Assembly (NCBI GenBank): GCA_016218575.1
Contig: JACRDN010000017.1
Span: 186,001-250,000 of the forward strand
Origin: Elusimicrobiota bacterium
GTDB lineage: Bacteria > Elusimicrobiota > Elusimicrobia > UBA1565 > UBA9628
Direction of reading: 5' to 3'
DNA: 64,000 nucleotides
Within the stretch, counting starts at the first letter, position 1, and each line of letters begins with the position of its first letter. The notes under the pieces were generated by a model. The model ran no database searches. It saw nothing but the letters and a program-made list of their open reading frames with translations, and was not told the origin of the DNA. This document shows, piece after piece, positions 31,772 to 57,484 of this stretch. The position numbers and the translations under genes were made by a program.

Positions 31772-31780
31772 GAGAATCCA

Positions 31781-33775: not shown

Positions 33776-34359
33776 CGAATCTAAACGCGGTCCAGAGCCT
33801 TCCAAATTCCCAGCGCCGCCTCTCGGCGGCGCTGGGCTGGGCCGCGGCGTCTCTCCTCTTTGCTTCCCTCTTCCTGCCCTATTGGCAGGCCCGGCTCTAC
33901 GCGCCGCAGTACCGCGGGGGCCTCACCGCCCGGATGCACCTGCACAAGCTCACCGGAGACGTGGCTGAGATAGACGAGCTCAACCATTACATCGGCATGA
34001 GAAAGCTGGGGGACCTGGCCGCGGTCGAGAGGGCCGCAGCTATCCCCGCGGTGCTCGCCTTGGCGCTCTTGTGCGGGCTAGCGTTTTCTTGGGGAGGCAA
34101 GGGTTGGAGGAGGCTTGCCTGCGCCTCGGCCGCGGCGTTCCCCGTCGCTTTCGTGGCGGACATGGCTTGGTGGATGCGCTGGGCCTGCTCGCACCTCGAT
34201 CCCACCGCGCCCCTCAAACTCAAGCCCTTCACGATTCCCTTCCTCGGGGCGGGCCAGGTGGCGCAGTTTAGAAGCGAGCTGCAGCCCCTGGTCGGCTTCT
34301 ATCTGGCCGCGGCTGCCGTGGTCCTGGTCTTGGAGGCCTCTTGGCTGTCGCGCGATTAG
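33772..34359 (+). CDS. Integral membrane protein of nos cluster
   Basis: 195 aa with about four membrane helices (for example ALGWAAASLLFASLFLPYW and GFYLAAAAVVLVLEASWL). Landmark HLHKLTGDVAEIDELNHYIGM between helices 1 and 2 contains conserved histidines and is typical of a small membrane protein found between nosZ and nosD in clade II clusters; its role in electron transfer or maturation is not established. Starts with ATGA at the nosZ stop and its end overlaps the NosD-NosF gene by 19 bp. Confidence 0.75.
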   Translation: MTNLNAVQSLPNSQRRLSAALGWAAASLLFASLFLPYWQARLYAPQYRGGLTARMHLHKLTGDVAEIDELNHYIGMRKLGDLAAVERAAAIPAVLALALLCGLAFSWGGKGWRRLACASAAAFPVAFVADMAWWMRWACSHLDPTAPLKLKPFTIPFLGAGQVAQFRSELQPLVGFYLAAAAVVLVLEASWLSRD

Positions 34360-36389
34360 CCCGGCTTCTGGCTCTGGCGGGAGCCCTCTCCGGGCCCGCT
34401 TGGGGCTCCGAGCTCCAAGACCTCATAGACCAGGCCGAGCCGGGCTCGGTGGTGGAGCTGGCTCCCGGAGTCCACCGTGGGCCGGTCGCGATCGGCAAGC
34501 CTCTCACTTTGCGCGGCGGGGGCAGGGCCGCGGTTTTAGGCGGCGGACGGGGAACGGTCGTCACGATCACGGCGCCGGGGGTCTCTATCGATGGCTTGCG
34601 CATCGAGGGCTCCGGGGAGAGCCTGCTGACCGAGGACGCCGGGGTCCGAGTCGAGGCGGCCTCGGCCGCGATCCGCGGTTGCGTGCTCGAGGATGTGCTC
34701 TTTGGGGTGTTTCTGGTCCACGCTCCCGGGGCTCTCATCGAGGGCAACCGCCTCCGAGGCAAAAGCCTCGACATCGGACGCCGGGGGGACCTCATCCGCA
34801 GCTGGAACAGCGACCGGGTGATCGCCAGGGGGAATATTCTGGAAGGCGGGCGCGATTTCGTGCTGTGGTTCTCGACCGGGTCGCGGGTCGAGGGCAACGT
34901 CATAACGGGGGGGCGCTACGGCCTGCATTTCATGTACACCAACGGCGCCAGCGTTGCCGGCAACCGCTTCACCGGAAATTCCGTGGGCCTCTACCTCATG
35001 TATTCCCAGCGCGTCGCCATCCGCGGCAACCGCTTCGAGCGCCACCGCGGCCCGAGCGGAGCGGGCCTGGGGCTCAAGGAAAGCGACTGGGTTTCCGTCG
35101 AGGAAAACGACTTCGCCGGAAACCGCCAGGGCATCTACATCGACGGTTCTCCGACGGTGGCCGAGCGGGGCAACGTCTTTAGCCGCAACCTCTTGTCGCG
35201 CAACGACATCGGCATTTCCATGCTTCCCGGCATCAGCGGCAACCTCTTCTACGACAACGCCTTCGACGACAATATCCAGCAGGTCTCAAAACGCGGCGGC
35301 GGCCAGATCGCGGGCAACGAGTGGCGGCGCGGCGGCCGCGGCAATTACTGGAGCGATTACGCCGGCTACGGGCTTTCCGGCTCCGAGGTGGGGCGCCTGG
35401 CCTACCGCGCCGAGAGCGCCTGGCAGAGCCTGACGGACCGCCGGCCCCTGGCCCGTTTCTTCTTGTTCACGCCGGCCGCCCAGGCGGTGGACGCCGCCAG
35501 CCGCGCCTTTCCCGTCTTCCGGCCCAAGGCCGTTCTGGTGGACGAGAGCCCGCTTTTGCGCCCGCCCATGGATTTGCGCCGCGCCTCCGATCCGATCGAG
35601 GCCGCATGGGGCCTGCCCTTGGGGCTGGCCTCGCTCTCGGGGCTTCTCTTGGGGTTGCCGGCGCTCCTGCGGACTCGTTCTAAAACTCGGGGCAAGAGCT
35701 CTCCTAGAGGCGTTCCTGTCGAGATCAAGGGGCTGTCCAAATCTTTCGGGAAGCGGGACGTCCTTAAAGGGGTGGACTTGAGCCTCTCTCCCGGAGAGAC
35801 GGTGGTGTTGTGGGGAGCCAACGGGACCGGCAAGAGCACCTTGATCAAATGCCTTCTCGGGCTCCATGATTACAAGGGCGAGATACGGATTTTCGGCAGG
35901 GACGCCCGGTCGGAGGGGCACCTGGCCCGCGCCGATCTGGGCTATGTCGCTCAGGAGTTCGCCGGCTACGACTGGACGGTGGGCCAGGCCATGGCCTTCG
36001 TGGCGCGGCTGCGCCAGCTCGAGCCTGCGCGGATCGAGCCGAGCCTGGAGGCTTGCGGACTGCGAGGAGAGGGCGGCAAGAGAGTCTGCGACCTCTCCGG
36101 GGGCATGAAGCAGAAGCTGGCCCTGGCCATGGCCCTCTTGGCCAATCCTCCGCTTCTCGTTCTTGATGAGCCTTGTTCTAACTTGGACGCGGCCAGCCGC
36201 GGGGATCTCCTCGGCATTTTGCGCGGCCTCAAGGGCCGCTCGATTATCATGACCACGCACCGTCTCTCGGAGGTCAAGGCCTTGGCCGACCGCGTTCTTT
36301 GTCTGGAGGAGGGGTCGGCCCCCAGGGCCCTGGGCCGGGAAGACTTCCTGATGTCGGCCTCGGAGTTCGGGGCCGAGGCGGCGGTATGA
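34341..36389 (+). CDS. nosDF: NosD-NosF fusion: periplasmic beta-helix plus ABC ATPase
   Basis: 682 aa, TTG start with signal peptide. Residues about 25-400 are the NosD right-handed beta-helix (repeats such as VEGNVITGGRYGLHFMYTN; landmark GNYWSDYAGY). A hydrophobic stretch follows at about 415-440, then an ABC ATPase (about 455-682) with Walker A GANGTGKST near residue 493, signature LSGGMKQK and Walker B LLVLDEP. These are normally two proteins, NosD (periplasm) and NosF (cytoplasm), for Cu/S delivery to NosZ. The open frame is continuous across the junction, so the fusion is in the sequence; the hydrophobic linker would span the membrane. Confidence 0.92.
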   Translation: MAVARLARLLALAGALSGPAWGSELQDLIDQAEPGSVVELAPGVHRGPVAIGKPLTLRGGGRAAVLGGGRGTVVTITAPGVSIDGLRIEGSGESLLTEDAGVRVEAASAAIRGCVLEDVLFGVFLVHAPGALIEGNRLRGKSLDIGRRGDLIRSWNSDRVIARGNILEGGRDFVLWFSTGSRVEGNVITGGRYGLHFMYTNGASVAGNRFTGNSVGLYLMYSQRVAIRGNRFERHRGPSGAGLGLKESDWVSVEENDFAGNRQGIYIDGSPTVAERGNVFSRNLLSRNDIGISMLPGISGNLFYDNAFDDNIQQVSKRGGGQIAGNEWRRGGRGNYWSDYAGYGLSGSEVGRLAYRAESAWQSLTDRRPLARFFLFTPAAQAVDAASRAFPVFRPKAVLVDESPLLRPPMDLRRASDPIEAAWGLPLGLASLSGLLLGLPALLRTRSKTRGKSSPRGVPVEIKGLSKSFGKRDVLKGVDLSLSPGETVVLWGANGTGKSTLIKCLLGLHDYKGEIRIFGRDARSEGHLARADLGYVAQEFAGYDWTVGQAMAFVARLRQLEPARIEPSLEACGLRGEGGKRVCDLSGGMKQKLALAMALLANPPLLVLDEPCSNLDAASRGDLLGILRGLKGRSIIMTTHRLSEVKALADRVLCLEEGSAPRALGREDFLMSASEFGAEAAV

Positions 36390-37228
36390 GCCCTGCGACC
36401 GAGGCGTTGGTGGGCAAGGAGTTCGCGCAGGCCACGCGCAGCCGGTGGCTGGCGGGCTTTGTCGCCGCCTTCCTGGGGCTGGGGGTAGCACTCATGGCCG
36501 CTGGCGCCTGGGGCTCGGCTTTCGGAGGCGCGGCGGGCTTCGGGCGGACCACCGCGGCCCTCATCAATCTCATCCTTCTCATCGTGCCGCTCATGGGGCT
36601 TTTGGCCGGGGCCTTGTCCCTCTCGGGAGAGCGGGAGCGGCGCACCCTCGAGTTTCTCCTCGCCCTGCCGGTGCGCCCGGAGGAGGTGTTCTGGGCCAAG
36701 TTCATCGGCGGGGCCTGGGCCTTGTGGGCCGCCTTGGCCATGGCCTTCTCGGCCCTGGGAGCCGTCCTCGCCCTCTCCGGAGGCCTGGCCCATGCCGGGG
36801 CCTACGCCTCGTGCTTTGCGGCCACTCTCCTTTTGGCGGCGGTGTCTTTGGCCATGGGCCTGGCCGTTTCCGCGGCCTGCGCGCGCACGGCGGCGGCGGC
36901 CGGCTGCGCGCTCTTGGCGTGGCTGGCCTTGGTCCTGGGGGGGGACTTGGGTCTTTTGGGCACGAGCTTGGCCGTCCGCCTTCCCCCGGGCGCTCTCCTC
37001 GCCTCGGCCTGGCTCAATCCCATGAGCCTGTTTCGATTGCTCGCGGTGGACTCGGCCGCCGCGGGCCTTGACGTCCTGGGCCCGGCCGGGCATTGCGCGC
37101 AGGACGCGCTGGGCTCTTGGCTGCGCCCCCTGGCGTTCGCGGGTTTGGGAGCCTGGCTTGCGGCCGGGCTCTGGGCCGCCCGCGCGATTTTCTGCCGCAG
37201 ACCCCTGGAAGGGGCTTTAAGGGATTAA
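36386..37228 (+). CDS. nosY: NosY ABC membrane permease
   Basis: 280 aa, about six membrane helices. Start at ATG 36386, overlapping the nosDF stop (ATGA). The segment LSLSGERERRTLEFLLALPVRPEEVFWAKFIG (landmark GERERRTLEFLLALPV) is characteristic of NosY/ABC-2 permeases. Forms the transporter with NosF to move a sulfur or copper species for CuZ assembly. Followed by nosL after 1 bp. Confidence 0.92.
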   Translation: MSPATEALVGKEFAQATRSRWLAGFVAAFLGLGVALMAAGAWGSAFGGAAGFGRTTAALINLILLIVPLMGLLAGALSLSGERERRTLEFLLALPVRPEEVFWAKFIGGAWALWAALAMAFSALGAVLALSGGLAHAGAYASCFAATLLLAAVSLAMGLAVSAACARTAAAAGCALLAWLALVLGGDLGLLGTSLAVRLPPGALLASAWLNPMSLFRLLAVDSAAAGLDVLGPAGHCAQDALGSWLRPLAFAGLGAWLAAGLWAARAIFCRRPLEGALRD

Positions 37229-37229
37229 C

Positions 37230-37664
37230 ATGAATACGCAAACCGAGAGAGGTTTTGGCCTCTTATCCGCGGCTCTCGGTGCCGCGTTGTTGCTGGCCGG
37301 CTGCTCCAAGCAGAAGCCGGGGGATGTTCCCCGTCTGCGTTTGGGGGCCGACGCCTGCGCGCGCTGCGGCATGATCGTGAGCGAGGAGCGCTTCGCGGCG
37401 GGCTACGTGGACTCGTCCGGGCGCTCGGTGATATACGACGACCTGGGCGAGTTCCTGGCCGAGGCCGAGAAGCGCCCTGAGATCAAGGCCGCCGCCTTCT
37501 TCCACGACGCGGAGTCCGGGCGCTGGATCGCGGCCCGCGGGGCGGTCGTGATCCGGGTGGAGGACTACCCTACGCCCATGGGCTCTGGCTACGCGGCCTT
37601 CTCCGACCGGGCCGCGGCCGAGCGCTTCCTGGCGGGGTTCAAGGCCTCGCGGCGGCGGCAGTAG
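37230..37664 (+). CDS. nosL: NosL copper chaperone lipoprotein
   Basis: 144 aa. Lipobox LLLAGCS puts the lipid anchor at about Cys25; the Cu(I)-binding motif CARCGMIVSEERFAAGY follows near residue 46, and PTPMGSGYAAF is the conserved C-terminal landmark. Delivers copper to NosZ at the outer face of the inner membrane. Last nos gene; its end overlaps the convergent lyase gene by 26 bp. Confidence 0.94.
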   Translation: MNTQTERGFGLLSAALGAALLLAGCSKQKPGDVPRLRLGADACARCGMIVSEERFAAGYVDSSGRSVIYDDLGEFLAEAEKRPEIKAAAFFHDAESGRWIAARGAVVIRVEDYPTPMGSGYAAFSDRAAAERFLAGFKASRRRQ

Positions 37665-39039
37665 TAACCGGATCGAACCGGGCCTGGAAGAACCTCAGGT
37701 ATTTGGGCTCGTGCGTCATTTTTAGCCCGGGGATGCCCTGCCTTGCCTGAAAGGCCGATTGAATGCCGCGGGCGACGTAATCGAGGTGGCTTTGGGTGTA
37801 GACCCGCCGCGGAAGGGTCAGGCGCACCAGCTCGAGCTCTGGCCGCCGTTCCTTGCCGGTCCTAGGGTCCCTCCCGGCCGAGACCATGCCTCGTTCCATG
37901 GAACGCACGCCGCATTCGGCGTAGATCGCGGCCGCTAGGGCTTGGGCCGGGTATTCCTCCTGAGGCAGGTGGGGAAGGAATTTCCGCGCGTCGATGAACA
38001 CCGCGTGCCCGCCCGCGGGATGGATCAGTGGAATGCCCATGTCCTTGAGGCAATGCCAAAGGTAATCCACCTGGCTCACCCGATGGGCGATCCATTCGTC
38101 TCTTTCAACCGACTCCCTGACGCCCTGGGCCACGGCCTCCAGGTCCCTTCCCGCCAGTCCTCCGTAGGTGTGAAGCCCCTCGTAGACTACGCAGAGATTC
38201 TTGGCCTCCTCGTGCAGGCTCTCGTCGTTCATCGCCAGGAACCCGCCGATGTTGGCGTAAGCGTCCTTCTTGGCGCTCATGGTGCAGGCATCCGACAGCG
38301 CGCACATCTTGAGGAGGATTTCCTTGACCGGCGTTGACTCGTAGCCGGGCTCGCGGCGCTGGATGAAATAGGCGTTCTCCACGGCTCGGCTGGCGTCGAG
38401 GACCAGACGGATGCCCTTGGTTCGGCAGAAGGCCGAGACGAGCCGGAGATTTTCCATGGAGACGGGCTGGCCTCCGGCCATATTGACCGGGGTCCCGACC
38501 GTGACGTAGGCGATCTTGCCGGCTCCGACCTTTCTCGCCAGGGTCTCGAGCTTGTCCAGATCCACGTTGCCCTTGAACGGATGCTCGCTTTCCGGGTCGT
38601 AGGCCTGGCCCACGATGACGTCCACGAAGGCGCCGCCGGCCAGCTCCTGGTGCAGTCGGGTCGTCGTGAAGTACATGTTGCCGGGGACGCATTGGCCGGG
38701 CTTGATGAGGAGGCGGCTCAGGATATGCTCGGCACCCCTCCCCTGGTGGGTCGGCACCATGTGCTTGTAGCCGTAGACCTCCCGCACGGCCTTCTCGAGG
38801 CGATAATAGCTGCGGCTTCCGGCGTAGGCCTCGTCGGCGGCCATCATCCAGGCCCACTGCGCGTCGCTCATGGCGTTGGTGCCCGAGTCCGTCAAGAGGT
38901 CTATGTAGACGTCCTGGCTGCGCAGGAGGAAGGTGTTGTAGCCGGCCTGGCGGATGGCCCTCTCCCGGGCGGGGCGCGGGATGAGGCTCACCGCCTCGAT
39001 GACCTTGGCTTTATACGGTTCCGGCAGTATTTCGTTCAT
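37639..39039 (-). CDS. Tyrosine phenol-lyase-like PLP enzyme (tryptophanase family)
   Basis: 466 aa beta-eliminating lyase. PLP lysine is K257 in SAKKDAYANIGGFLAMND. Residues favour tyrosine phenol-lyase over tryptophanase: GTNAMSDAQW, PGNMYFTTTRLHQE, NIGGFL, GVRSMERGMVSAGRD (with the arginine of the phenol-lyase specificity site) and LRFFQARFD. It would convert L-tyrosine to phenol, pyruvate and ammonia. Third gene of a minus-strand unit after the TrxR-like and rSAM-isochorismatase genes, overlapping the latter by 29 bp. Tryptophan or another aromatic substrate remains possible. Confidence 0.85.
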   Translation of the reverse strand: MNEILPEPYKAKVIEAVSLIPRPARERAIRQAGYNTFLLRSQDVYIDLLTDSGTNAMSDAQWAWMMAADEAYAGSRSYYRLEKAVREVYGYKHMVPTHQGRGAEHILSRLLIKPGQCVPGNMYFTTTRLHQELAGGAFVDVIVGQAYDPESEHPFKGNVDLDKLETLARKVGAGKIAYVTVGTPVNMAGGQPVSMENLRLVSAFCRTKGIRLVLDASRAVENAYFIQRREPGYESTPVKEILLKMCALSDACTMSAKKDAYANIGGFLAMNDESLHEEAKNLCVVYEGLHTYGGLAGRDLEAVAQGVRESVERDEWIAHRVSQVDYLWHCLKDMGIPLIHPAGGHAVFIDARKFLPHLPQEEYPAQALAAAIYAECGVRSMERGMVSAGRDPRTGKERRPELELVRLTLPRRVYTQSHLDYVARGIQSAFQARQGIPGLKMTHEPKYLRFFQARFDPVTTAAAARP

Positions 39040-40639
39040 GGTCGCTCCTGATCGCCGCCGTGATCTGCGCGGCGCTGAGCACGGTCGAGAAGCCGTGGGC
39101 GAGATTTTTCAGCGCCGCCAGGTGCAGCTCCTCGGCGCGCGCCGCGGTGGCGTCGAGGACGACGAAGGTCTTGAAGCCCCGGTCGAAGGCGTCCCGGATC
39201 GTGGATTCGACGCACAGGTTGGTCGCCACGCCGCAAACCGCGAGCTCCTCGACTCCGTCCCGGGACAAAATCCGGCCCAGGGAACGGTTGGTGAAGGCGC
39301 TGTAGCGGCACTTGCGCAGGACCCGGCTCTTGCCCGGCTCGAGCGCGGGGGAAATCCGGGCCTCCGGGGTGCCGTCGAGGCAGACGCTGCGCCACCACTG
39401 CGGCATGAGCCCTCCGTCCTTGGCCGGATCGCGGTGGGCGTGGCGGGTGAAGTAGACTGGGCGGCCCGCGCCCCGGAAGGCTTGGACCAGGGCCCGGACG
39501 TTGCCGAGAATGGCCCTGGCCGGCGGCAGGAAGGAGGGGCTCCGAGGGTCGAGGAAGAGCTCCTGCATGTCCATCACGAGGAGACCCGCCTTCCCGGGCT
39601 TAAGCTCGAAGGAGCGCCTGAGGCAATGCGCGATCCGGGCCGCCCAGTCGCGGGACTTGGCGTTCAGGTTCTCGGGCCCGACGTAGGACTCCTCGAGCCT
39701 CTTGAGGCTTGCGAGCATCGTCGCCGCCCTGCCTTTGAGCGCCGCGGACCACAGCTGGCCGCAGGAGGTTTGGGCCGAGATCTCCTCGGGAAGGCTTGGG
39801 CTTATGATCACGTCGAAGCCCAGGGCCTCGAGCTCCCCGGCGTCGGCCTTGATCCCGTCCGGGGCCTCTCCCCAGAGATGGGCGGCTCCGCGGCGGGCCG
39901 CGGCCTCGGTGGGGTTGACCGGCGTGATCTTGACCAGGAATTTGGCGGGAGAGAAGACCTCGTCGATGCGCCGCGGGTCGAGCCTTTCGCCCTTGGCCAG
40001 GGCGAAATTGAGCGTGATCTTCCGGTCTCCGCCGGCGACGAACCTCTGGCCATAGAGGGAAACCTCCTCCAAGCTCCATTTCTTGATGGGGACGATGATT
40101 TTCCTTCTCTCCTCATCCGTCGAGTGGAGGGAAAACTGGAGTTGGAAGCGGCCGCCGGGGTAGAGGCTGTTTTTGAGCGCCAGGAGCTCCTCGAAAAAAC
40201 GTTCGACCGAGGGGCTTTTGGGCGCGACGGTGGACAGGCTGGGAAGTATTCCGTCGTAGGGGAATTCCCGAGCCAGCATCTCTAGAGCCTTCAAGACATC
40301 AGGGTTGAGGGCGGGTTCGCCCATCCGCGCGAAATGGATCTTGACCTTGGGGTGGCGCCGGACGTCGAGCCCGGGGTTCTCGCGCACCACATGCCGGATT
40401 TGACCCAGGATCTGGGCGGCGGAGAGGTTTCCCCGGTAGCCCATGGCTCCGGCGTCGCACATGCGGCAGCCCACCGGGCAGCCGAACTGAGTCGAGACCA
40501 TCATCACCCATTTCTCGTTTTTGGGCACGCCCGGCTCCAAGGTGTCCACGAACTCCGCGAGCTTCTCCGGATCAGGCCCGAGCTGGGCCAAGTACAGCGA
40601 GGCCAAGGGGGGGAGGGCGAGGCTGTCGACGATTCTCAT
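39011..40639 (-). CDS. Radical SAM domain fused to isochorismatase-like hydrolase
   Basis: 542 aa. N-terminal ~340 residues are a radical SAM domain with CPVGCRMC (Cys54, Cys58, Cys61), related to the RlmN-like group by local sequence (KIHFARMGEPALNPDVLKAL). C-terminal ~190 residues are a cysteine-hydrolase/isochorismatase domain: LLVMDMQELF (Asp), RKCRYSAF (Lys) and GVATNLCVEST (catalytic Cys). I know of no characterised enzyme with this domain pair. Overlaps the TrxR-like gene by 4 bp (ATGA) and the lyase by 29 bp. Could modify then hydrolyse or oxidise a small aromatic or amide molecule, which is speculative. Confidence 0.85.
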   Translation of the reverse strand: MRIVDSLALPPLASLYLAQLGPDPEKLAEFVDTLEPGVPKNEKWVMMVSTQFGCPVGCRMCDAGAMGYRGNLSAAQILGQIRHVVRENPGLDVRRHPKVKIHFARMGEPALNPDVLKALEMLAREFPYDGILPSLSTVAPKSPSVERFFEELLALKNSLYPGGRFQLQFSLHSTDEERRKIIVPIKKWSLEEVSLYGQRFVAGGDRKITLNFALAKGERLDPRRIDEVFSPAKFLVKITPVNPTEAAARRGAAHLWGEAPDGIKADAGELEALGFDVIISPSLPEEISAQTSCGQLWSAALKGRAATMLASLKRLEESYVGPENLNAKSRDWAARIAHCLRRSFELKPGKAGLLVMDMQELFLDPRSPSFLPPARAILGNVRALVQAFRGAGRPVYFTRHAHRDPAKDGGLMPQWWRSVCLDGTPEARISPALEPGKSRVLRKCRYSAFTNRSLGRILSRDGVEELAVCGVATNLCVESTIRDAFDRGFKTFVVLDATAARAEELHLAALKNLAHGFSTVLSAAQITAAIRSDHERNTAGTV

Positions 40640-41520
40640 GAGGCCATGAGGAACCGCTCGCTTTCCATGGCGGCACGGAGCCCGTCTCCCGCGGCCACGG
40701 CCACCTGCCTAAAGCCCCCCCGGCAATCCCCGGCCGAGAAAAAGCCCGCGGGCGGCGAGCGCCAGCGCCCCAAGGCGGGGCCGGGCTCCTTGCCGACCAA
40801 AATGAAGAGGCCGCGGGCCTCGATGGCGGATTTTTTCCCCGTGTCCAAGCGTTCGACCTCTACGGCTTCGATGAAGTCATTCCTCCGGTCCGGGGCGCAG
40901 CGCACCCCTTTGACTATGGTTCGGAACAATATTTCGACCTTCGGGCAGGCCGCGAGCCTTTCCCGCAGGATCTTGACGGCCTTCAGGCGCTCGCCCCGGA
41001 CGATGAGGCGCACCTTGCGCGCCTCGGCGGCCAGGAGCAGGGCCTGGTGGACCGCCGCGTCCCCGCTTCCGGCTATCGCAACGATCTGGCCCGAAAAGCG
41101 GGCGGTTAGGCCGAAGGCGCAGTGATGGATTCCACGGCCGAGGAGCTTTGCCTCCCCGGGAAGTCCCAATGGCTTGAAGCGCGATCCCTCGCAGGCGATG
41201 ACGCTGCGCGCCAGGCAAGTCCCCGCGCCGGCGTCCACGCGGAACAGGCCGCCCGCGCGCGCCACCTCGGTTACGGCTTGGCGTACGGCTTTAAGCCCCC
41301 ATCGCCGGCCCTGGAGGATGAAGCGGTCCATCAAAATTCGGCCGGATATTCCCGCGGGAAAGCCCGGATAATTCTCGATCCTCTGGATGAACCGGGCTTG
41401 CCCCCCGAGAGAGTCCTTTTCAAGGAGGAGAACCCGCCAGCCGGCCCTGGAGAGATAAGCTCCGGCGGAAAGCCCGGCCGGGCCGCCTCCCACGATCACG
41501 ACATCCCAACGGCCGTCCAT
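40636..41520 (-). CDS. Thioredoxin-reductase-like flavoprotein without redox CxxC
   Basis: 294 aa. FAD motif VIVGGGPAGLSAGAYLS near residues 8-24 and NADPH-type motif IAGSGDAAVHQALLL about 150. Where TrxB has the CAxC disulfide this protein reads HHCAFGL, with one cysteine only, so it is not a normal thioredoxin reductase. Likely an NAD(P)H- or ferredoxin-linked flavoprotein that supplies electrons to its partner rSAM enzyme, an inference from the ATGA overlap. The ATG at 41520 follows within 2 nt of the start predicted by the bidirectional promoter. Confidence 0.85.
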   Translation of the reverse strand: MDGRWDVVIVGGGPAGLSAGAYLSRAGWRVLLLEKDSLGGQARFIQRIENYPGFPAGISGRILMDRFILQGRRWGLKAVRQAVTEVARAGGLFRVDAGAGTCLARSVIACEGSRFKPLGLPGEAKLLGRGIHHCAFGLTARFSGQIVAIAGSGDAAVHQALLLAAEARKVRLIVRGERLKAVKILRERLAACPKVEILFRTIVKGVRCAPDRRNDFIEAVEVERLDTGKKSAIEARGLFILVGKEPGPALGRWRSPPAGFFSAGDCRGGFRQVAVAAGDGLRAAMESERFLMAS

Positions 41521-41528
41521 GACCAGGC

Positions 41529-41605
41529 ATCATAGCGCGGGACGGGGCTCTCCTCTATGACCGCGGTCATAGACAGGAGGAGGGGGCGAGGCTATTCTAT
41601 GCGCG
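41529..41605. promoter_or_regulatory. Bidirectional promoter with Crp-type palindrome at -41.5 on both sides
   Basis: CTATGACCGCGGTCATAG (41555-41572) is a perfect 18-bp palindrome of the form TATGA-N6-TCATA. Plus-strand -10 TATTCT at 41593-41598 and minus-strand -10 TATGAT at 41534-41529 are each centred 32 bp from the palindrome centre (41563.5). With +1 at 41605 and 41522 the site is at -41.5 for both promoters, the class II activator position of Crp/Fnr proteins. The minus gene would start 2 nt before its ATG; the plus gene has a 12-nt leader with GGAGG. Confidence 0.8.
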
Positions 41606-41616
41606 GAGGGCATGCC

Positions 41617-42330
41617 ATGAAATGGGGGCTCGCCGGTCTATTGGGCTTGTTGGGCGCCTCGGAGCTGGGATCGGAGTCGGTCACTCTGACCACCTACTAT
41701 CCGGCGCCTTCCGGGGTTTACGCGCAGATGATAACGACCAACAACACTTTCCTGGCCCGCGACGGCGGGAGCGTGGGCGTCGGGACCGCGAGCCCGGCCC
41801 AAAAGCTGGACGTGAGCGGGGCCATCAGGATGAACCAGGCCGGCGTCGGAGCGCTCCTTTCTGGCGCGGCTTCCGGAAATTTCGGCGGCAAGGAAGTGAT
41901 ACTGAGCGTCAACAGCGGCGCCGGCGGCGCCGGGGATGAGATATGGATCGGGCCTAACACGGGCGGGATGATCGGGCACATACAGCTCAACGCCGCCGAC
42001 ATCTGGCTCAACAACCCCGCGAACCTCGGCTACGCCCGGCTCAACAACGGGCATCTCTACATGAATACCGCCAACACCGCCTGCACGGCTTACACGATAT
42101 CCGGCGACGTGTGGACGAGCTTGTGCCCGGCCAACACCTACGCTACTTGGACTCCCGGGGTCTGGGTGGAGGGCTACTCCTACCAGAACCGGGGAGGCAC
42201 GGTGCTGGCCGACTACGGCACGGGCACCACCAACCAGGTGTGGGGGCTTAACACGGCCAACGGCCAGGCCTCCTGGATGACCCTCAAGAAGGACGACTCC
42301 ACCGCGATGGTCTACTGCTGTTCCAAATGA
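41617..42330 (+). CDS. Secreted/surface protein with YPAPSGVY and VGVGT motifs
   Basis: 237 aa. Signal peptide to about residue 22 (LAGLLGLLGASELGS), then TTYYPAPSGVYAQM and GSVGVGTASPAQKLDVSGAIRMN, a pattern seen in fibre-like or pseudopilin-associated exported proteins of some uncultured phyla, followed by Asn/Gly-rich strands and six cysteines. Start ATG 41617 fits the promoter (GGAGG 7 bp ahead) better than upstream in-frame ATGs at 41599. First gene under the Crp-type promoter; function unknown, possibly a matrix or filament partner of the His-Xaa-Ser peptide. Confidence 0.7.
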   Translation: MKWGLAGLLGLLGASELGSESVTLTTYYPAPSGVYAQMITTNNTFLARDGGSVGVGTASPAQKLDVSGAIRMNQAGVGALLSGAASGNFGGKEVILSVNSGAGGAGDEIWIGPNTGGMIGHIQLNAADIWLNNPANLGYARLNNGHLYMNTANTACTAYTISGDVWTSLCPANTYATWTPGVWVEGYSYQNRGGTVLADYGTGTTNQVWGLNTANGQASWMTLKKDDSTAMVYCCSK

Positions 42331-43241
42331 AAGCGGCGGCCGGCGTCCTGGCTTTCCTGCTGGCGGCCGGGCTTTGCTCGGCGGCCGAGCCGGCCAAGCC
42401 GCAAGACCTGAAATTCGAGGAGGTTCTCTCCGAGCTCGGGGCGCGCTGCGCCTCCCCCGGCTTTGACGCCCCCGCCCTCTTCGAGGACGCCGGCCTGCGC
42501 CCATTCCTGGCCCAGGCCTTGGACCAAAAGGCTATCCAGGAATTCGAGAGCCTCTTCGCCTGCGAGGCGCGCCTTTCCGGCGGCTCCAAGCCCTGCGAAA
42601 GATTGGCGGGCCCGGGCTGGGAGCGCTCTTACGCGGCGTGCCGTCGGGAGTTCGCGCATGCCGCTTTGGTCCGGGACCCGCGCGGCCCGGGCGCTCAAGC
42701 CCTATGCCTTGAGTATCTGACATTCTCCGGCGCCCCTATCGCCGCCGCCGATCGTCCGGCGGCGTGCCGGGCCTACTTGGAGGCGCTCCCGGGCAAGGAC
42801 TTCCAGAAGTTCTGCCGGGAGCTGGTCTCCAAGGAAATCCTGCCTCCGGCAGCACGGGCCGACTGCGTCGCCGCCAACAGCCGGGCGGCTGCCTCATCTT
42901 TCGCCAAGACCGCCGCATGCGGGCCTCTCCAGAGGCGGGCCTCCGCCTCCCTTTGCGCCCGCTACAAGGCCGAGCTCGGCAAGACCCGGGTCAAGCGCGA
43001 GGCCGACCTCACGCGACGGGTCTCCGGCGAGACCCCGCAGGAGCTGGCCAAGCGGGCCGCCAGCCGAGAGGCCGTTCAGAAAATGGAGAAGTTCGAGACC
43101 GCGCGGTCCGAAAAATCCTCGACGCAGAAGCAGGGCTGGGTCAAAAAGGAAGCCGGGCGCAGGCGCTTTAAGAGCGGCCAGCCCATGAAGGGCACGCGAG
43201 ATCTGCGCGAGATGCTCGAGCGCGTCAAGGAGGTCCGGTGA
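42327..43241 (+). CDS. Exported Cys-containing protein of unknown function
   Basis: 304 aa. Signal peptide MKAAAGVLAFLLAAGLCSAAE; mature part has repeated cysteines in a spaced pattern (CASPGF, CEARLSGGSKPCERL, YAACRREF, CLEYL, CRAYL, CREL, CVAANS, ACGPLQ, CARY), at least ten, and a basic Lys/Arg C-terminus. No domain recognised. ATGA overlap with the gene before and GTGA overlap with the HxsD-like gene, so it belongs to the same operon. Might be a partner or substrate of the maturation system. Confidence 0.75.
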   Translation: MKAAAGVLAFLLAAGLCSAAEPAKPQDLKFEEVLSELGARCASPGFDAPALFEDAGLRPFLAQALDQKAIQEFESLFACEARLSGGSKPCERLAGPGWERSYAACRREFAHAALVRDPRGPGAQALCLEYLTFSGAPIAAADRPAACRAYLEALPGKDFQKFCRELVSKEILPPAARADCVAANSRAAASSFAKTAACGPLQRRASASLCARYKAELGKTRVKREADLTRRVSGETPQELAKRAASREAVQKMEKFETARSEKSSTQKQGWVKKEAGRRRFKSGQPMKGTRDLREMLERVKEVR

Positions 43242-43708
43242 GTCAAGAGCAATCCCAGGAAGTCGAGTTTCCGGTCGATTGCGGCCTTTATCCCCCGGAG
43301 GCCGTCCAGGCGGCCGCGTACCGGTTCACGGACAGGGCCTACGTCAGGATTTCCCGCCCAAAAAAGGGGGAGCTTCTGGTGAAAATCAAGGCCAAGGACG
43401 GGAGCCTCGGCGAGCGCGCGAAATTGTCGGACGAATTTTGGAACGAGCTCCTGCACCAGGCCCTGAGGCAGAAAATCTCGAGCCGCAACCGCAAGCTCCG
43501 GGAGCTTATCGTGACCAAGGCTCTGATTTCGGCCCGGGAGGCGCTTGCGCCGGAGCGCCCGGAGGAGCCCTGCGCGGGCCTGGACCAGGACCTCGAGAGG
43601 GAGATAGAGGCCCTGGTCAGGGAGATCGAGAAATCCGAACCGGGAAGCGATCCCCTCGGGGTATCCGTGGCCTGGGAGCAGAAGTACGGCGCAGAACCCC
43701 GGCCATGA
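43238..43708 (+). CDS. hxsD: HxsD-like protein of His-Xaa-Ser maturation system
   Basis: 156 aa, GTG start. The region FWNELLHQALRQKISSRNRKLRELIVTKAL has the pattern F-NELLxxxLRxxI-(S/T)-xLREL of HxsD proteins, which accompany the rSAM maturases HxsB and HxsC. N-terminal FPVDCGLYPPEAVQAAAYRFTDRAYVRI resembles the HxsD opening. Placed between an exported protein and the HxsB-like rSAM enzyme with GTGA and ATGA overlaps. The function of HxsD is not known. Symbol by homology. Confidence 0.75.
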   Translation: MSQEQSQEVEFPVDCGLYPPEAVQAAAYRFTDRAYVRISRPKKGELLVKIKAKDGSLGERAKLSDEFWNELLHQALRQKISSRNRKLRELIVTKALISAREALAPERPEEPCAGLDQDLEREIEALVREIEKSEPGSDPLGVSVAWEQKYGAEPRP

Positions 43709-45162
43709 GGCCGGGCGAGGAACTCCTGCGCGGATTTTCCGGGGAGTCCGCGGGCCTGGTGCGCTTCCGGCAGGTGGGGCCGCGGTACCTCCTGACCAAT
43801 GAGTTCGGCCGCCACGTCTTCCTTGAGGCCGCGGAGTTCTCTGGCTTCATGGGGGGGCGGCTCGACAAGGAGTCCGCTCTCTACGAGCGTCTCTGCGCCG
43901 AGGGCTTCGTCCGGGACCGCATGGATTTTGCGGCCCTGGCGCAAAGGTGGCGCAAGCGCCATAGTTTTCTCTGGCAGGGGCCGGGCCTTCACATCGTGGT
44001 CGTGACCTTGCGCTGCAATCATCGCTGTCTGTACTGTCAGGCGAGCTCCGTGGGCATGAAGGAGGCGGGGACGGACATGAGCCTCGAAACGGCCCGCATG
44101 GCGGTGGACCGCATTTTCGAGAGTCCCAACCCGGCCCTGACGATCGAATTTCAGGGCGGGGAGCCTCTGGCCAATTGGCCGGCCGTGGAATTCATAACGA
44201 ACTACGCCCGGCAAAAGAACGAGGCGGCCGGAAAAAAGCTCTGGATCAACCTGGTCTCCAACCTCAGCCTCATGGACGAGGCCAAACTCGATTTCCTGCT
44301 CGCCAACGGCGTCACCTTCTGCACCTCCTTGGACGGCCCGGCCGACCTCCATGACCGCAACCGGCCCTACGCGGGGGGTGCCAGCCACGCCGAGGCCGTG
44401 CGCTGGTTCAAGGAGATCCAGCGGCGCACGGCCCGCCAGACCTTCGGTATCGACGCCCTTCTGACCACCACGCGCTTCTCCTTGGGCCGGGCCAAGGACA
44501 TCGTGGACGAATACGTGCGTCTGGGGGCGCGCAGCGTGTACCTGCGTCCCTTGAATCCGTACGGCCTGGCCAAGGCGACTTGGGAGAAAATCGGCTATTC
44601 CGTCGAGGAGTTTCTCCGATTTTACAAGGAGGCCCTGGACTACATACTTGAAATAAATTCCCGCCAGGTCTTCTTCGAACAGTGGAGCCGGCTGTTCCTG
44701 GCCAAGATACTCACCGACGAGGATCCCAATTTTCTGGACCTGCGCTCCCCATGCGGAGCCGGGATCGGGCAGATCGCCTACAATTACGACGGCAGGATCT
44801 ACACCTGCGACGAGGGGCGCATGCTCAGCCGCATGGGAGACGAGAGCTTCCAGATCGGGACTTTGGCGGGGCAGTCTTACGCCGACACGGTTTCCCATCC
44901 CGTGGTCAAGGCCCTGTCCGTGGCCTCTTGCCTTGAGAACAACCCCGACTGCGACCGCTGCGCCTACAAGCCCTACTGCGGGCTCTGCCCGATCCAATGC
45001 TACGCCGAGCAGGGGGATATCGTGGGGCGCATGCCCTTGAACGCGCGCTGCCGTCTTCACCAGGGGATATTGGACCTGCTCTTCGACAAGCTGGACGATC
45101 CCCGATGCCGGAAGACATTCGAGCTTTGGCTGCGCAAGCCAGAGATCCTGTACCAGCGCTAA
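43705..45162 (+). CDS. hxsB: HxsB-like radical SAM maturase
   Basis: 485 aa. rSAM cluster motif LRCNHRCLYCQAS (Cys104, Cys108, Cys111) preceded by an ~100-residue N-terminal domain, GGEPLANW as SAM-binding motif, and a C-terminal Cys-rich SPASM-like part (CGAGIGQIAYNYDGRIYTC, NPDCDRCAYKPYCGLCPIQC). Length, the 'RCNHRC-YCQAS' landmark and the neighbouring HxsD-like and Ser-His-Xaa peptide support HxsB, the proposed maturase of His-Xaa-Ser repeat peptides. ATG at 43705 overlaps the HxsD stop. The reaction is unknown. Confidence 0.85.
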   Translation: MRPGEELLRGFSGESAGLVRFRQVGPRYLLTNEFGRHVFLEAAEFSGFMGGRLDKESALYERLCAEGFVRDRMDFAALAQRWRKRHSFLWQGPGLHIVVVTLRCNHRCLYCQASSVGMKEAGTDMSLETARMAVDRIFESPNPALTIEFQGGEPLANWPAVEFITNYARQKNEAAGKKLWINLVSNLSLMDEAKLDFLLANGVTFCTSLDGPADLHDRNRPYAGGASHAEAVRWFKEIQRRTARQTFGIDALLTTTRFSLGRAKDIVDEYVRLGARSVYLRPLNPYGLAKATWEKIGYSVEEFLRFYKEALDYILEINSRQVFFEQWSRLFLAKILTDEDPNFLDLRSPCGAGIGQIAYNYDGRIYTCDEGRMLSRMGDESFQIGTLAGQSYADTVSHPVVKALSVASCLENNPDCDRCAYKPYCGLCPIQCYAEQGDIVGRMPLNARCRLHQGILDLLFDKLDDPRCRKTFELWLRKPEILYQR

Positions 45163-45183: not shown

Positions 45184-45618
45184 GTGAACAATAAGAAGCT
45201 GATCCCAACCATCAAGAAGGACATCACCAGGTTCCTGACGAGCGAGGAAGGCAAGATGCTCAAAAAAGACGTGGTCAAGGCGGCCGCGGTGCTCGGCATC
45301 ATCGGCGCGGCCCTGATGAAGACCGATGACCTTCTGGCCCAATCCGCGCACACCAACGCCCTGCACAACTCGGGCTCGGGCACTTCCCACGTCAGCCACA
45401 GCTCTCATGCAAGCCACGCTTCCCACGGCTCCCACGGTTCTCATGGATCCCATGGCTCGCACGGCTCCCATGGCTCGCACGGGTCGCACGGCTCCCATGG
45501 CTCGCACGGCTCCCATGGCTCGCACGGCTCCCATGGCTCGCACGGGTCGCACGGATCCCATGGCTCCCACGCCAGCCACGGCTCGCACGGCAGTCACAGC
45601 CGGGGCGGCTGGTGCTAA
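45184..45618 (+). CDS. hxsA: HxsA-like His-Xaa-Ser repeat precursor peptide
   Basis: 144 aa, GTG start with GGAGG. Residues 1-67 form a leader with KKDITRFLTSEEGKMLKKD and a hydrophobic AAAVLGIIGAALM stretch; residues 68-139 are 24 consecutive Ser-His-Xaa triplets, 18 of them Ser-His-Gly, then RGGWC at the C-terminus. Leader plus repeat core and position next to hxsD/hxsB-like genes match the HxsA precursor class. Products of this system have not been described in detail. The core offers 24 His and 24 Ser as modification sites or metal ligands, plus a terminal Trp-Cys. Confidence 0.85.
   Translation: MNNKKLIPTIKKDITRFLTSEEGKMLKKDVVKAAAVLGIIGAALMKTDDLLAQSAHTNALHNSGSGTSHVSHSSHASHASHGSHGSHGSHGSHGSHGSHGSHGSHGSHGSHGSHGSHGSHGSHGSHGSHASHGSHGSHSRGGWC
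45385..45600 (+). repeat. 9-bp-unit tandem repeat coding Ser-His-Xaa x24
   Basis: 216 bp, 24 units of 9 bp. Ser uses five codons (TCC, TCG, TCT, AGC, AGT) and His both codons, so selection acts on the peptide. The most recent expansion is an 18-bp unit TCCCATGGCTCGCACGGC, found exactly three times (units 8-9, 13-14 and 15-16 of 24) and with one change twice more. Confidence 0.95.
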
Positions 45619-45622
45619 TGTG

Positions 45623-46687
45623 ATGCGACCCCTAACGGGGCGCACGCTCCTCTGCGTTTTCCAGCTGACCAGGCGGTGCCAGCTCAAGTGCGCCTACTGC
45701 TACTGCGCCAAGGGCGCGGGCCAGATGAGCCCCGGGACCGCCGCGCGCGCCGTGGAGTTCCTAGCCGGCCTTAAACCCCGCTATGACCATATCACGATCG
45801 GGTTCATGGGCGGCGAGCCCTTGATGGCCTGGGAGGCCTTGAAGAGGGTGGTAGGCCTGGCGCAAAAGAGGGGCCTCGACGCGTTTTGCGTGGCCACCAA
45901 CGCGCGCCTCCTCGATCCGGAGAGGATGCGCTTTCTGGCGGAGAACAACGTCTCTCCCCAACTGAGCCTCCACGGGATCTTCGACGCGGCGCGGTCGGGG
46001 TTTTGCTCCGTTTCCTGGAGGAAGACGGAGCGGCTCCTGTTGTCCTGCGGCGGCTGGGCCCGCCGAATCGCGGCGGCAAACCCCAACCCCTTCCGCGTGC
46101 GCCTGACGGTGACTCCCGAGGGGCTTGAGCTGCTGTCCGCCGCGGTCGAGCGCGTGGCGGGCCTCCTGGCCGGGATGCCGGTTTACCTGACCGTGATGCC
46201 GGCCATGCCCGGGGCGGGCTTTCTCGCGGCCGACCGCCGCGCGCGGCTCCTTCCGGAGTTGAGGCGCCAGATGCGGCTCATCGCGGAACTCCACGAGCGC
46301 CGGGCACGAGAGGGTGATCCCTTGGTCCTCACCATCAACGAATGCTTCAACCTCGACGAGTGGAGCGGCTTCGCCTCAGCCCGGGGCTTGGAGGAGGCCG
46401 CCTCCTGCGGGGCGGGCTCAAGGGTCATGGCCGTGGCCGAGGACGGAGGGCTTTACCCCTGCTATCTGCCGGCCGCCGCCGGGATGGAGCGCTTCAAGGG
46501 CGGCGATGTTTGGCGGGGCCTTGTCCGGCCCGAGGCCTTCCGGTGTTTTCGCGGTCCGGGGCCGAACCGGGGATTTTCCTGCCTGCACTGGAACCGCCTG
46601 GAGACGGGCCGGCCGGAGGAGCCCGCTCTCCTTTATAGAGCCTTCTACCTCAGTTGGCGGGAGCAGGCGCTTCGGATGCGCTCATGA
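45623..46687 (+). CDS. Radical SAM protein (HxsC position)
   Basis: 354 aa from ATG 45623 (GTG 45620 also possible), 4 bp after the precursor. rSAM motif TRRCQLKCAYCYC (Cys19, Cys23, Cys26), GGEPLMAWEAL, and C-terminal cysteines in SCGAGSRVMA, LYPCYLP, FRCFRGPG and FSCLHWN that may bind auxiliary Fe-S clusters. Occupies the place of HxsC in His-Xaa-Ser systems, but assignment to HxsC is by context only. Overlaps the next rSAM gene by 4 bp. Confidence 0.8.
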   Translation: MRPLTGRTLLCVFQLTRRCQLKCAYCYCAKGAGQMSPGTAARAVEFLAGLKPRYDHITIGFMGGEPLMAWEALKRVVGLAQKRGLDAFCVATNARLLDPERMRFLAENNVSPQLSLHGIFDAARSGFCSVSWRKTERLLLSCGGWARRIAAANPNPFRVRLTVTPEGLELLSAAVERVAGLLAGMPVYLTVMPAMPGAGFLAADRRARLLPELRRQMRLIAELHERRAREGDPLVLTINECFNLDEWSGFASARGLEEAASCGAGSRVMAVAEDGGLYPCYLPAAAGMERFKGGDVWRGLVRPEAFRCFRGPGPNRGFSCLHWNRLETGRPEEPALLYRAFYLSWREQALRMRS

Positions 46688-47616
46688 GGCGCCTGAGAAT
46701 CGCCGTCGGGTCGCGGTGCAATATGCGCTGCTCCTATTGCCTGGCCCAAAAGGAGCCCGCGCAAAGGCTCAAGGGGGAAAAGGCCCTGCGGGTTTTGTCC
46801 GCCTTCATGCGCTTGCCCGGCCGCGGGAAATCCGTGGAGGTTTATGGGGGAGAGCCCACCCTTGAGCTGCCGCTTTTGCGCTCCCTCTTCGGCGAGGCCC
46901 GGCGTTTGGAGCGCGTCCTAGGAAAGAAACTGGGCCTGTCCTTGGCGACCAACGGGCTCTGCTTGGGACGCGAGGCCCTCGAGATTATCGCGCGGCACCG
47001 GGTCCGCCTCTGCGTGAGCGTGGACGGAGCCTCCCATGACCGTTTCCGGCGTCTGCCGGGAGGGGGAGGGACCTTGGCCCGGATCGAGCGCGGGCTTGAG
47101 GAGGCTTTCCGGCTCCTGCCCCGCTCCGGCATGACCGCGCTGCAGGCGGTCCACCCCGGCAACGTGGACGGCCTCCTCGAGAATTTCAAGTTCGTGCTGG
47201 GGCTGGGCTTTGAGAACGTCAACTTCGAGATGATCCAGGGCCAGCCCTGGGGGGAGGGCGAGCTTGCCTGCTTCGAGGCCGGGATGCGGCGGGTGGGAGA
47301 GTTCCTAGTCGAGGGGATCCGTCGCGGCCGCCCCGCGTACTTGGAAACGCTTAACGCGGCCTTGGGCGAGCTCCTGGGCCGAGACTCCAGGCCAGACCCC
47401 ATCGAGCTCTATCCCTCTGGTCGGTTGGGTTTGACCCCGTACGTTCTCCTGGGCCGTGCCGCCTCCGGGCGCGAATCGGCCTGCGAGGTCCGGGTCTTGG
47501 AGGCGCGCCAGAGGCTGTCGCGCCGCCTGGCTCGGCAATTGGCGCAAATGGCGGCCAGGGACCCCGCCTTCGCCCGCTACGCGGCCCAGGCCTCCTGGAG
47601 AGGAAGGGCTCCATGA
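46684..47616 (+). CDS. Radical SAM protein, no obvious SPASM domain
   Basis: 310 aa. Very early cluster motif SRCNMRCSYC (Cys12, Cys16, Cys19), VYGGEPTLELPLL as SAM motif, and DGASHDRFR further on. The C-terminal half has one cysteine near ESACEVRV and no CxxC cluster, so it seems to have only the SAM cluster. Substrate unknown. ATGA overlaps at both ends. Confidence 0.82.
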   Translation: MRRLRIAVGSRCNMRCSYCLAQKEPAQRLKGEKALRVLSAFMRLPGRGKSVEVYGGEPTLELPLLRSLFGEARRLERVLGKKLGLSLATNGLCLGREALEIIARHRVRLCVSVDGASHDRFRRLPGGGGTLARIERGLEEAFRLLPRSGMTALQAVHPGNVDGLLENFKFVLGLGFENVNFEMIQGQPWGEGELACFEAGMRRVGEFLVEGIRRGRPAYLETLNAALGELLGRDSRPDPIELYPSGRLGLTPYVLLGRAASGRESACEVRVLEARQRLSRRLARQLAQMAARDPAFARYAAQASWRGRAP

Positions 47617-48731
47617 GCCCAGACGCCCCGGGTGCCGAAGAAAGGCACTGGCTAAGGCTCACCACAGTCTGCAACCAAAGATGCCTTTTTTGCCTCGACC
47701 GCGACGCCCAGGACGGGGGCTTCGTGGAATGGGAGGCCCTGCGCCGGGAAATGTCCGAGGCCCGCTCGCGGGGGCTCAAGCGCGTCGTCCTGAGCGGAGG
47801 GGAGCCCACCATTCATCCCCGCTTCCTGGAGGCCGTGGGGGCGGCCCGCGAGCTTGGGTTCGAGAGGATACAGGTCATCACCAACGGCCGAAGGTTCTGC
47901 TATCCAGACTTTTTAAGAAAGGCGCAAAGTCTGGGTTTAAGCGAGGCGACCTTCTCTTTGCACGGCCATACCCGGGAGCTGCACGAGCGCCTCACGCGCA
48001 CCCCGGGCTCCTTCCTGCAGGCCTTGGCCGGGCTCGGCAACGCCCTGTCCTTGCCGGGTATGATCGTGAGCGTGGACGTCGTGATCACCAAGCTCAACCT
48101 GGGAGCCTTGCGGGAAATCCTGGATTTCTACCTGGGCTTGGGCGCGCGGGAATTCGACCTCCTGCGCCTGACGCCGACCGGAGACGCTTGGCGGCATTGG
48201 GGCGAGCTCTACTGCGACTTTTCCGACCCCGAGAACCTGGCCAGCCTGCGCCGAGCTCTCGAGCTTTCGCGCCGTCCCGGGGTTCGGATCTGGACCAACC
48301 GCCTGGCCCCGGAATTCCTAGAGGGCTACGAGGACTTGATCCAGCCGCCGGAGAAGCTCTTGGACGAGCTTCGGGGACGCTACTCGGTCTTTCGCCGGTT
48401 CCTCGCCGGGCTTGCGGAGCCGGAATGCGCCGGACCCCAGTGCCGGCACTGTGCCTTGGAGGGCCTTTGCTCTGATCTCAAGCTCTTGCGGCGCTGCGGC
48501 CGGCTCGAGGCGAGGCCGGGGCCCCTGTGCCGGGGGTCCTCGGACTCGCCTCGGGAGCCCTTCCTGTTCAGCGCCGGGGTGGATATTTTCGACTTCGGCC
48601 GCTTCTACATCGAGGCCCGGCATTTCGCCAAGGGGGCGGCGTGCGGGTCCTGCTCCCTCCAGGGAGCCTGCGACGGTATTCTCGTCGACGATCTGCGCCG
48701 TCTGGGGTTTGCCGGCCTCAGGCCTTGCTAA
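47613..48731 (+). CDS. Radical SAM protein with auxiliary cysteine clusters
   Basis: 372 aa. VCNQRCLFC at Cys20/24/27, LSGGEPTIHPRFLEAV, ITNGRRFCYPDF. Similar over ~180 residues to the rSAM protein at 55848-56759 (shared NGRxFCYxxF, SLHG, TPGSFLQxxAG/SPGSFLQTVAG, VITKxN), so these two are paralogues. C-terminal Cys-rich tail (CAGPQCRHCALEGLC; ACGSCSLQGAC) suggests further clusters. Confidence 0.83.
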   Translation: MSPDAPGAEERHWLRLTTVCNQRCLFCLDRDAQDGGFVEWEALRREMSEARSRGLKRVVLSGGEPTIHPRFLEAVGAARELGFERIQVITNGRRFCYPDFLRKAQSLGLSEATFSLHGHTRELHERLTRTPGSFLQALAGLGNALSLPGMIVSVDVVITKLNLGALREILDFYLGLGAREFDLLRLTPTGDAWRHWGELYCDFSDPENLASLRRALELSRRPGVRIWTNRLAPEFLEGYEDLIQPPEKLLDELRGRYSVFRRFLAGLAEPECAGPQCRHCALEGLCSDLKLLRRCGRLEARPGPLCRGSSDSPREPFLFSAGVDIFDFGRFYIEARHFAKGAACGSCSLQGACDGILVDDLRRLGFAGLRPC

Positions 48732-48740
48732 GGCCCTAAC

Positions 48741-49676
48741 ATGGCAGAGCTCGCCTACCTCCAGATTTCCCGGGTCTGCAACCAGAAGTGCCGTTTCTGC
48801 TCCAACCCCTCCAACGGCCGCCTGATCGGTTGGGAGGAGGCGCGCGCCTGGATAGACCGCTTCGCCCAAGAAGGCTGGGCCGGGGTCATTTTGACGGGGG
48901 GCGAGCCCACTTTGTTTCCGGAGCTCGCGCGCCTGGTGGCTTACGCCCGGGGCCGGGGCCTGGCGACGAGGCTCATCACCAACGGCCAGAGGACCGCGGA
49001 TAGGGTCTATCTCGAATCCTTGGCCGGGGCGGGGCTCACGCACATGCATGTGTCCATCCATTCCCATGAGGAGCCGGTCCAGGCCTTCCTGACCCAGAAT
49101 CAGGCTTGCTTGGGCCGCATCCGCGGCACCTTGGACAACGCCGGGGCCTTGGGCCTGAGGGTGGACATCAATACGGTCATCAACAAGAAGAACGCGGCCG
49201 GCCTCGACGCCTTGGTCGAGTGGCTTCTGCGCTCCTATCCCTTCCTCGGGCATTTCGTCTGGAACAATCTTGATCCCCTGATGGGCGGCCCGGCCGCCGG
49301 CGAGCTCGTCGCCCGCCTGCGCGACTTCGAGCTCTCTTTGCACCGGGCCATGGAATTTCTCGACCGCGCCGGGCGCACCTTTCGGGTCGAGAGGGTGCCC
49401 CTCTGCTTCATGTCGGAGTTTCCCCACCGCTCCACGGAGACCAGAAAGATCGTCAAGAGGGAGAAGCGCAGCATCTATTTCCTGGACGAAAAGGGCCTGC
49501 ACGCCCAGGGCCAGGCGGCCTGGCGCTACGGCAAGGGCCCGCTCTGCGCTTCCTGCCGGGCCGCGCCGGTCTGCGCCGGGCTCTACCAGATGGACAGGCT
49601 CTGCTCCTCAGCCGAGCTTTGCCCCATCTTCACGAGCCCGGAATCCGTCGCGCAAAGGGTCCTCCAGGATGGCTGA
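48741..49676 (+). CDS. Radical SAM protein with C-terminal SPASM-like cysteines
   Basis: 311 aa. SRVCNQKCRFC (Cys13, Cys17, Cys20), LTGGEPTLFPELARLV and ITNGQRTADR. Short C-terminal Cys group PLCASCRAAPVC, LCSSAELCP. Begins 9 bp after the preceding gene and overlaps the next by 8 bp. Substrate unknown. Confidence 0.82.
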   Translation: MAELAYLQISRVCNQKCRFCSNPSNGRLIGWEEARAWIDRFAQEGWAGVILTGGEPTLFPELARLVAYARGRGLATRLITNGQRTADRVYLESLAGAGLTHMHVSIHSHEEPVQAFLTQNQACLGRIRGTLDNAGALGLRVDINTVINKKNAAGLDALVEWLLRSYPFLGHFVWNNLDPLMGGPAAGELVARLRDFELSLHRAMEFLDRAGRTFRVERVPLCFMSEFPHRSTETRKIVKREKRSIYFLDEKGLHAQGQAAWRYGKGPLCASCRAAPVCAGLYQMDRLCSSAELCPIFTSPESVAQRVLQDG

Positions 49677-54569: not shown

Positions 54570-54646
54570 ACTCTACAGAGTTCAGCGCCCGGGTTTTATG
54601 ATTTGCGTCATAGACAACCCCGGCCGCGACGGCTATGCTGGGGCCG
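54570..54646. promoter_or_regulatory. Second bidirectional promoter with TATGA-N6-TCATA site
   Basis: TATGATTTGCGTCATA (54597-54612) is centred at 54604.5. Plus-strand -10 TATGCT at 54634-54639 and minus-strand -10 TAGAGT at 54575-54570 are both centred 32 bp from it, the same geometry as the 41.5-kb site. Start sites at 54646 (ATG at 54649) and 54563 (ATG at 54560) put the site at -41.5 on both strands and give 2-3 nt leaders. Confidence 0.75.
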
Positions 54647-57469: not shown

Positions 57470-57484
57470 CGGCTATTTCGTTGC
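57470..57484 (+). promoter_or_regulatory. Putative sigma-54 -24/-12 promoter for crp-like gene
   Basis: CGGCTATTTCGTTGC, GG-N10-GC. Overlaps the end region of the methyltransferase gene by position of its stop (57467-57469). Expected start near 57496, 4 nt before ATG 57500. Confidence 0.6.

Follow-up and report, generated by a model that had tools for sequence, protein, structure and literature searches.

A perfect 20-bp palindrome, TCTATGACCGCGGTCATAGA (41554–41573, centre 41563.5), lies between two divergent operons in the 64,000-nucleotide stretch of Elusimicrobiota DNA analysed here (the window), and it very probably serves as operator to P0003, a Crp/Fnr-family regulator encoded 16 kb away (57500–58192, plus strand), which would act from it as a class II activator in both directions. 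A single P0003 dimer at 41563.5 would stand at –41.5 for polymerase on either side, activating an operon for a TrxR-like protein, a radical SAM-isochorismatase fusion and a lyase on one side and an operon for a secreted YPAP protein and Hxs (His-Xaa-Ser) components on the other. From a second operator, centred at 54604.5, P0003 would likewise activate the operon leading into its own gene together with a divergent radical SAM unit, so that the island from 37.6 to 58.2 kb would form one autoregulated regulon. A single dimer may be unable to serve two polymerases at once. Two-sided activation of the TrxR and Hxs units had been proposed in the first-pass annotation, and that interpretation is supported overall and can be regarded as a strong prediction from comparative evidence.

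The two palindromes and the units they face

Site 1 carries the TGA-N6-TCA core of Crp/Fnr operators, and a pattern search of the whole genome found it to be the sole exact copy of the palindrome. The first-pass annotation had recognized a perfect palindrome but made it too short, overlooking the outermost T-A pair; CTATGACCGCGGTCATAG occupies 41555–41572, inside the full 20 bp. The –10 hexamers of the plus promoter (TATTCT, 41593–41598) and of the minus promoter (TATGAT, 41529–41534, read from 41534 to 41529) both span +30 to +35 from the centre of the site, and their own centres are, as had been claimed, each 32 bp from 41563.5. The position of –41.5 proposed for both sides holds if transcription starts 7 nt past each –10. 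The plus promoter also has a –35-like TAGACA (41570–41575), separated from the –10 by a 17-bp spacer, and is the sole promoter detected in a plain sigma-70 scan of 41000–42200. Of the starts suggested at about 41522 and 41605, the latter falls on a G, but the minus-strand base at 41522 is a T, and the minus start is therefore more likely at G41523/G41524 or at the A of the ATG at 41520. As this ATG lies just 8 nt past the –10, the minus mRNA would be leaderless or nearly so, and a plus start at G41605 would place the Shine-Dalgarno sequence GGAGG (41605–41609, for the ATG at 41617) at the extreme 5′ end of the transcript. A terminator or hairpin reading of the palindrome was ruled out, there being no terminator-like site there.

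A palindrome by itself is unremarkable here, since the window (66% GC) contains three of at least 20 bp where ∼0.17 would be expected. The exact motif TATGACN4GTCATA has an expectation of 0.025 per genome, and finding TANNNT at a single set offset by chance has p = 0.005, site 1 matching on both arms. When all 23 contigs of the genome (2.82 Mb) were searched for the half-sites with a –10 at equal distance, just two places fit at up to 2 mismatches, both within the window, and reversed-motif controls gave zero matches; the same genome searched for a –42.5 variant returned weak, chance-like matches only. The first of these places is site 1 and the second, site 2, is TATGATTTGCGTCATA (54597–54612, centre 54604.5), which is the site 1 motif with one mismatch. 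Its –10 elements, TATGCT on the plus strand (54634–54639) and TAGAGT on the minus strand (54570–54575), again span +30 to +35, with ATGs 9 nt on at 54649 and 54560, respectively, and a –35-like TAGACA of the plus promoter (54611–54616) overlaps the site. TANNNT thus stands at +30 on all four arms of the two sites, and the annotated picture of one palindrome between two promoters is right for site 1, which is two-sided, but not in its singularity, as site 2 shares the geometry.

The minus unit of site 1 begins with a TrxR-like pyridine nucleotide-disulphide oxidoreductase (40636–41520) and continues with a radical SAM (RlmN/Cfr-like) protein fused to an isochorismatase domain (39011–40639) and a tyrosine phenol-lyase/tryptophanase-like beta-eliminating lyase (37639–39039; TIGR02618, 708 bits, slightly below the cut-off of 721). 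Across many genomes of the class, the TrxR-like gene has as a conserved neighbour a fusion of this radical SAM (RlmN/Cfr-like) and isochorismatase-type hydrolase kind. The plus operon opens with the secreted YPAP protein (41617–42330), homologues of which occur in three other genomes (G010, G011 and G021), followed by a secreted protein without a family assignment (42327–43241) that overlaps both neighbours, HxsD (43238–43708; TIGR03976), the HxsB radical SAM maturase (43705–45162, start read from sequence; TIGR03978) and the His-Xaa-Ser repeat protein HxsA4 (45184–45618, HGS repeats; NF038313), and it ends in a row of six overlapping or nearly overlapping radical SAM genes (45623–51775), some of them HxsC/HxsC4-like. 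HxsA4, HxsB and HxsD all exceed their NCBIfam cut-offs, and the several HxsC/HxsC4-like radical SAM genes of the island are every one below theirs.

Site 2 faces, on the minus strand, a unit of P0017, the radical SAM protein P0019 and P0020 (51729–54560) and, on the plus strand, the operon leading to the regulator, which encodes an A24-like peptidase (below its Pfam cut-off), an HxsC4-like radical SAM protein and a tetrapyrrole-methylase-fold protein (54649–57469), the last of these genes ending 30 bp before that of P0003. Directly before the regulator, CGGCTATTTCGTTGC (57470–57484) resembles a sigma-54 promoter (TGGCN7TTGC with one mismatch); the exact TGGCN7TTGC precedes four orthologues in genus g8, and the genome of the window has a Sigma54_DBD match.

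Conservation of the site and its spacing

The comparison covered about 30 related genomes. Across 56 genomes of the order TATGACN4GTCATA is present in 21 copies and its reversed control in none, and the copies cluster on contigs that carry a P0003 orthologue (G011, G015 and G020). Within the phylum the exact site occurs in 35 of 295 genomes and a close P0003 orthologue in 29 of 295, a count that is weaker alone because the reversed control too occurs in a number of genomes there. A scan of 507 kb, mostly around P0003 orthologues, for TATGAYN4RTCATA at 10 or more of 12 matches returned 40 sites, against 3 for the reversed control, and some 15 genomes have a site 15–110 bp past the stop codon of the regulator. 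What is kept in relatives is the half-sites alone, as the exact 16-mer, CCGCGG centre included, showed no conservation among them. Of 54 arms, 18 have TANNNT at +30 from the centre and 10 have it at +31 (28/54 together), with 0–2 arms at each other offset, and the class II geometry claimed for site 1 thus recurs in orthologue neighbourhoods, with the –10 scarcely found elsewhere.

A spacing fixed to one base is a requirement of contact between an activator and polymerase, and is not something a repressor would need. It is unlikely, then, that the palindrome is a repressor operator at which a dimer occupying both –35 regions silences promoters that would otherwise fire from TAGACA and the –10, although the fair –35-like TAGACA with its 17-bp spacer does overlap the site at both plus promoters, and a YPAP/TrxR divergent pair in G021, which has neither palindrome nor P0003 orthologue, looks unregulated. 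Repression gives no reason for the –10 to lie exclusively at +30/+31, and the minus-strand –35 elements are poor (TAGAGG and TAAAAC), matching what activator-dependent promoters would show. In addition, –41.5 is the activating position in E. coli FNR, whose site falls at –41.5 ± 4 in 19 of 23 activated promoters (PMC3688515).

The genes near the sites in relatives bear on the proposed activation of both units by P0003. The coupling to the Hxs operon is supported by sites with the same –10 offset in two other genera, one before a YPAP/HxsB operon (G011) and one in the gap that separates the regulator from a divergent hxsA4 (G055). In G055 (L161:9870–9980) the palindrome is very near the regulator ATG, which would suit auto-repression there and activation of hxsA4 opposite. 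The coupling to the TrxR unit fared less evenly. Regulator, TrxR and rSAM-isochorismatase form a gene run in G039, G040 and G051, TrxR, rSAM-isochorismatase, lyase and regulator adjoin in G002, and the same genes fall within 15 kb in G035, a linkage that supports both sides belonging together, but outside the genome of the window no site was found directly before TrxR, including in relatives where TrxR stands apart from any divergent pair, the closest being ∼530 bp away (G002), and the upstream regions of 14 TrxR orthologues held no conserved palindrome directly before the gene. Other genes downstream of relatives' sites, as named from sequence, are DUF488-type, cytochrome, hemerythrin-type and stress-protein genes; upon checking, DUF488 was confirmed and the hemerythrin match was below its cut-off. 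G259 has a third two-sided site (L169:16879), with TAGTGT and TAGACT both at +30, flanked by an Hsp20-like gene and one that diverges from it.

The regulator P0003

P0003 belongs to the Crp/Fnr family, with matches above the cut-offs to PF00027 (6.9e-12) and PF13545 (2e-12), and is built of an N-terminal cNMP-binding-like beta-roll and a C-terminal HTH_Crp domain. It retains the CRP base contacts E181 and R185 as E190 and R194, which together recognize the GA of TGA, and has L189 in place of R180; the R is found in all orthologues and the E in all but one. The presence of the site follows the residue at the R180 position. Where this is L, V, I or T the site is found at 20 of 20 orthologue loci, counting one (G006) where it matches at merely 9/12 yet has its –10 at +30, and where it is P or Q the site is found at 0 of 8 (Fisher 3e-7, uncorrected for kinship). 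The covariation may reflect few events, because 7 of the 8 site-less loci come from one genus; a search for the site at the orthologue loci of genus g8 did not find it. Two of the genomes with site-less loci (G039 and G051) do carry exact copies of the motif in other places, none of them with a –10 at the set distance. The 57500 protein had been named as the predicted binder, and both the clustering of the motif round its orthologues in many genomes and the tracking of the recognition helix favour that assignment, as does G021, where a divergent YPAP/TrxR pair goes with the absence of both P0003 orthologue and palindrome.

The genome encodes four HTH_Crp_2 proteins, P0003 and three Crp/Fnr paralogues, and the family core is common to them, which leaves some room for a real site bound by another paralogue, for instance the one at 16090–16911 beside cytochrome/nos genes. 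We judge this very unlikely, as the sites in other genomes gather round P0003 orthologues, both sites of the genome itself lie within the P0003 island, and site presence goes with the P0003 helix. That a chance palindrome without regulatory role fell in a short divergent spacer is exceedingly improbable despite the three long palindromes of the window, given the low expectation for the exact motif, the equally spaced two-sided site 13 kb away, and a motif and spacing conserved in other genera, the cross-genome spacing profile making chance very unlikely. The 16090–16911 regulator has a different recognition helix, SPEVVSR, and is near cytochrome genes.

With P0003 as the predicted binder, it probably responds to redox, oxygen or NO, since it lacks the residues that contact cAMP and has four conserved cysteines around the pocket. 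The CRP contacts E72, R82 and S83 correspond to L88, Y99 and P100 in P0003, no P0003 orthologue has E/R at CRP positions 72/82, and control by cAMP was rejected on the strength of these pocket residues. An FNR-type N-terminal 4Fe-4S cysteine cluster is missing as well, P0003 having no cysteine before residue 47. Cysteines C90, C101, C134 and C137, conserved in 27, 28, 22 and 26 of 28 orthologues, align with CRP G74, A84, S117 and M120, close to the ligand pocket; that they hold a cluster would be no more than a guess. A wider proposal, plausible but on balance somewhat doubtful, is that P0003 founds a Crp/Fnr subfamily whose nucleotide pocket has turned into a four-cysteine (Fe-S or thiol) sensor, and that one –41.5 dimer per divergent pair switches a peptide-modification island, with two polymerases sharing or competing for it. 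Modelling P0003 with AlphaFold from one sequence gave a poor structure (pLDDT 48), which was left out of the analysis.

Likeness to known systems

The layout is of a known kind, as a single Crp-family dimer at divergent promoters is known for both CRP and Cmr. E. coli CRP reportedly activates both of two divergent promoters from a single target (El-Robh & Busby 2002, Biochem J 368:835; cited in PMC5499769), and the case proposed here resembles it in having one Crp-family dimer, one target and activation both ways; it differs in that P0003 is of a subfamily without the cAMP pocket and would have another operator, and in that two such sites occur here in one natural island. Cmr of Mycobacterium tuberculosis binds one site in the region separating its own gene from a divergent one and activates the latter, is independent of cAMP and controlled via cysteines, and represses one of its own promoters (PMC5499769). 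P0003 is likewise a Crp/Fnr protein for which we propose cAMP-independent divergent activation from a single site, but Cmr has a TGTCAGCGTGCTGACA-like operator, its cysteines are Cys36 and Cys131, and it has no radical SAM targets (PMC5499769). With FNR/FixK/DNR class II promoters the sites share the TGA-N6-TCA core, the centre at –41.5 and the E..R recognition helix, along with the cytochrome, hemerythrin, DUF488 and stress-protein genes that follow them in relatives. In contrast to that group, the P0003 half-site is TATGAY and not TTGAT, and the four cysteines lie elsewhere than in the N-terminal cluster of FNR.

By its HxsA4, HxsB and HxsD the plus operon resembles the Hxs radical SAM peptide-modification system, and unlike known Hxs systems it has an expanded HxsC4-like set and shares its promoter region with the TrxR/rSAM-isochorismatase/lyase unit. 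To our knowledge P0003 and its predicted sites are the first testable regulator and operator for an Hxs radical SAM system; new to us are the subfamily of the regulator, the operator it would bind and the tie to Hxs. The TrxR/rSAM-isochorismatase/lyase unit is predicted to act together with the Hxs units, and redox, oxygen and NO are the conditions to look under. A natural and conserved two-sided class II layout also makes a case for studying one activator shared by two polymerases.

A clade II nitrous oxide reductase cluster (31187–37664) is also present in the window, comprising cytochrome-like, NosZ (TIGR04246, above its cut-off), NosD-like, ABC permease and NosL genes, and a TATGAY site accompanies orthologues of the 31187 protein in G015 and G020.
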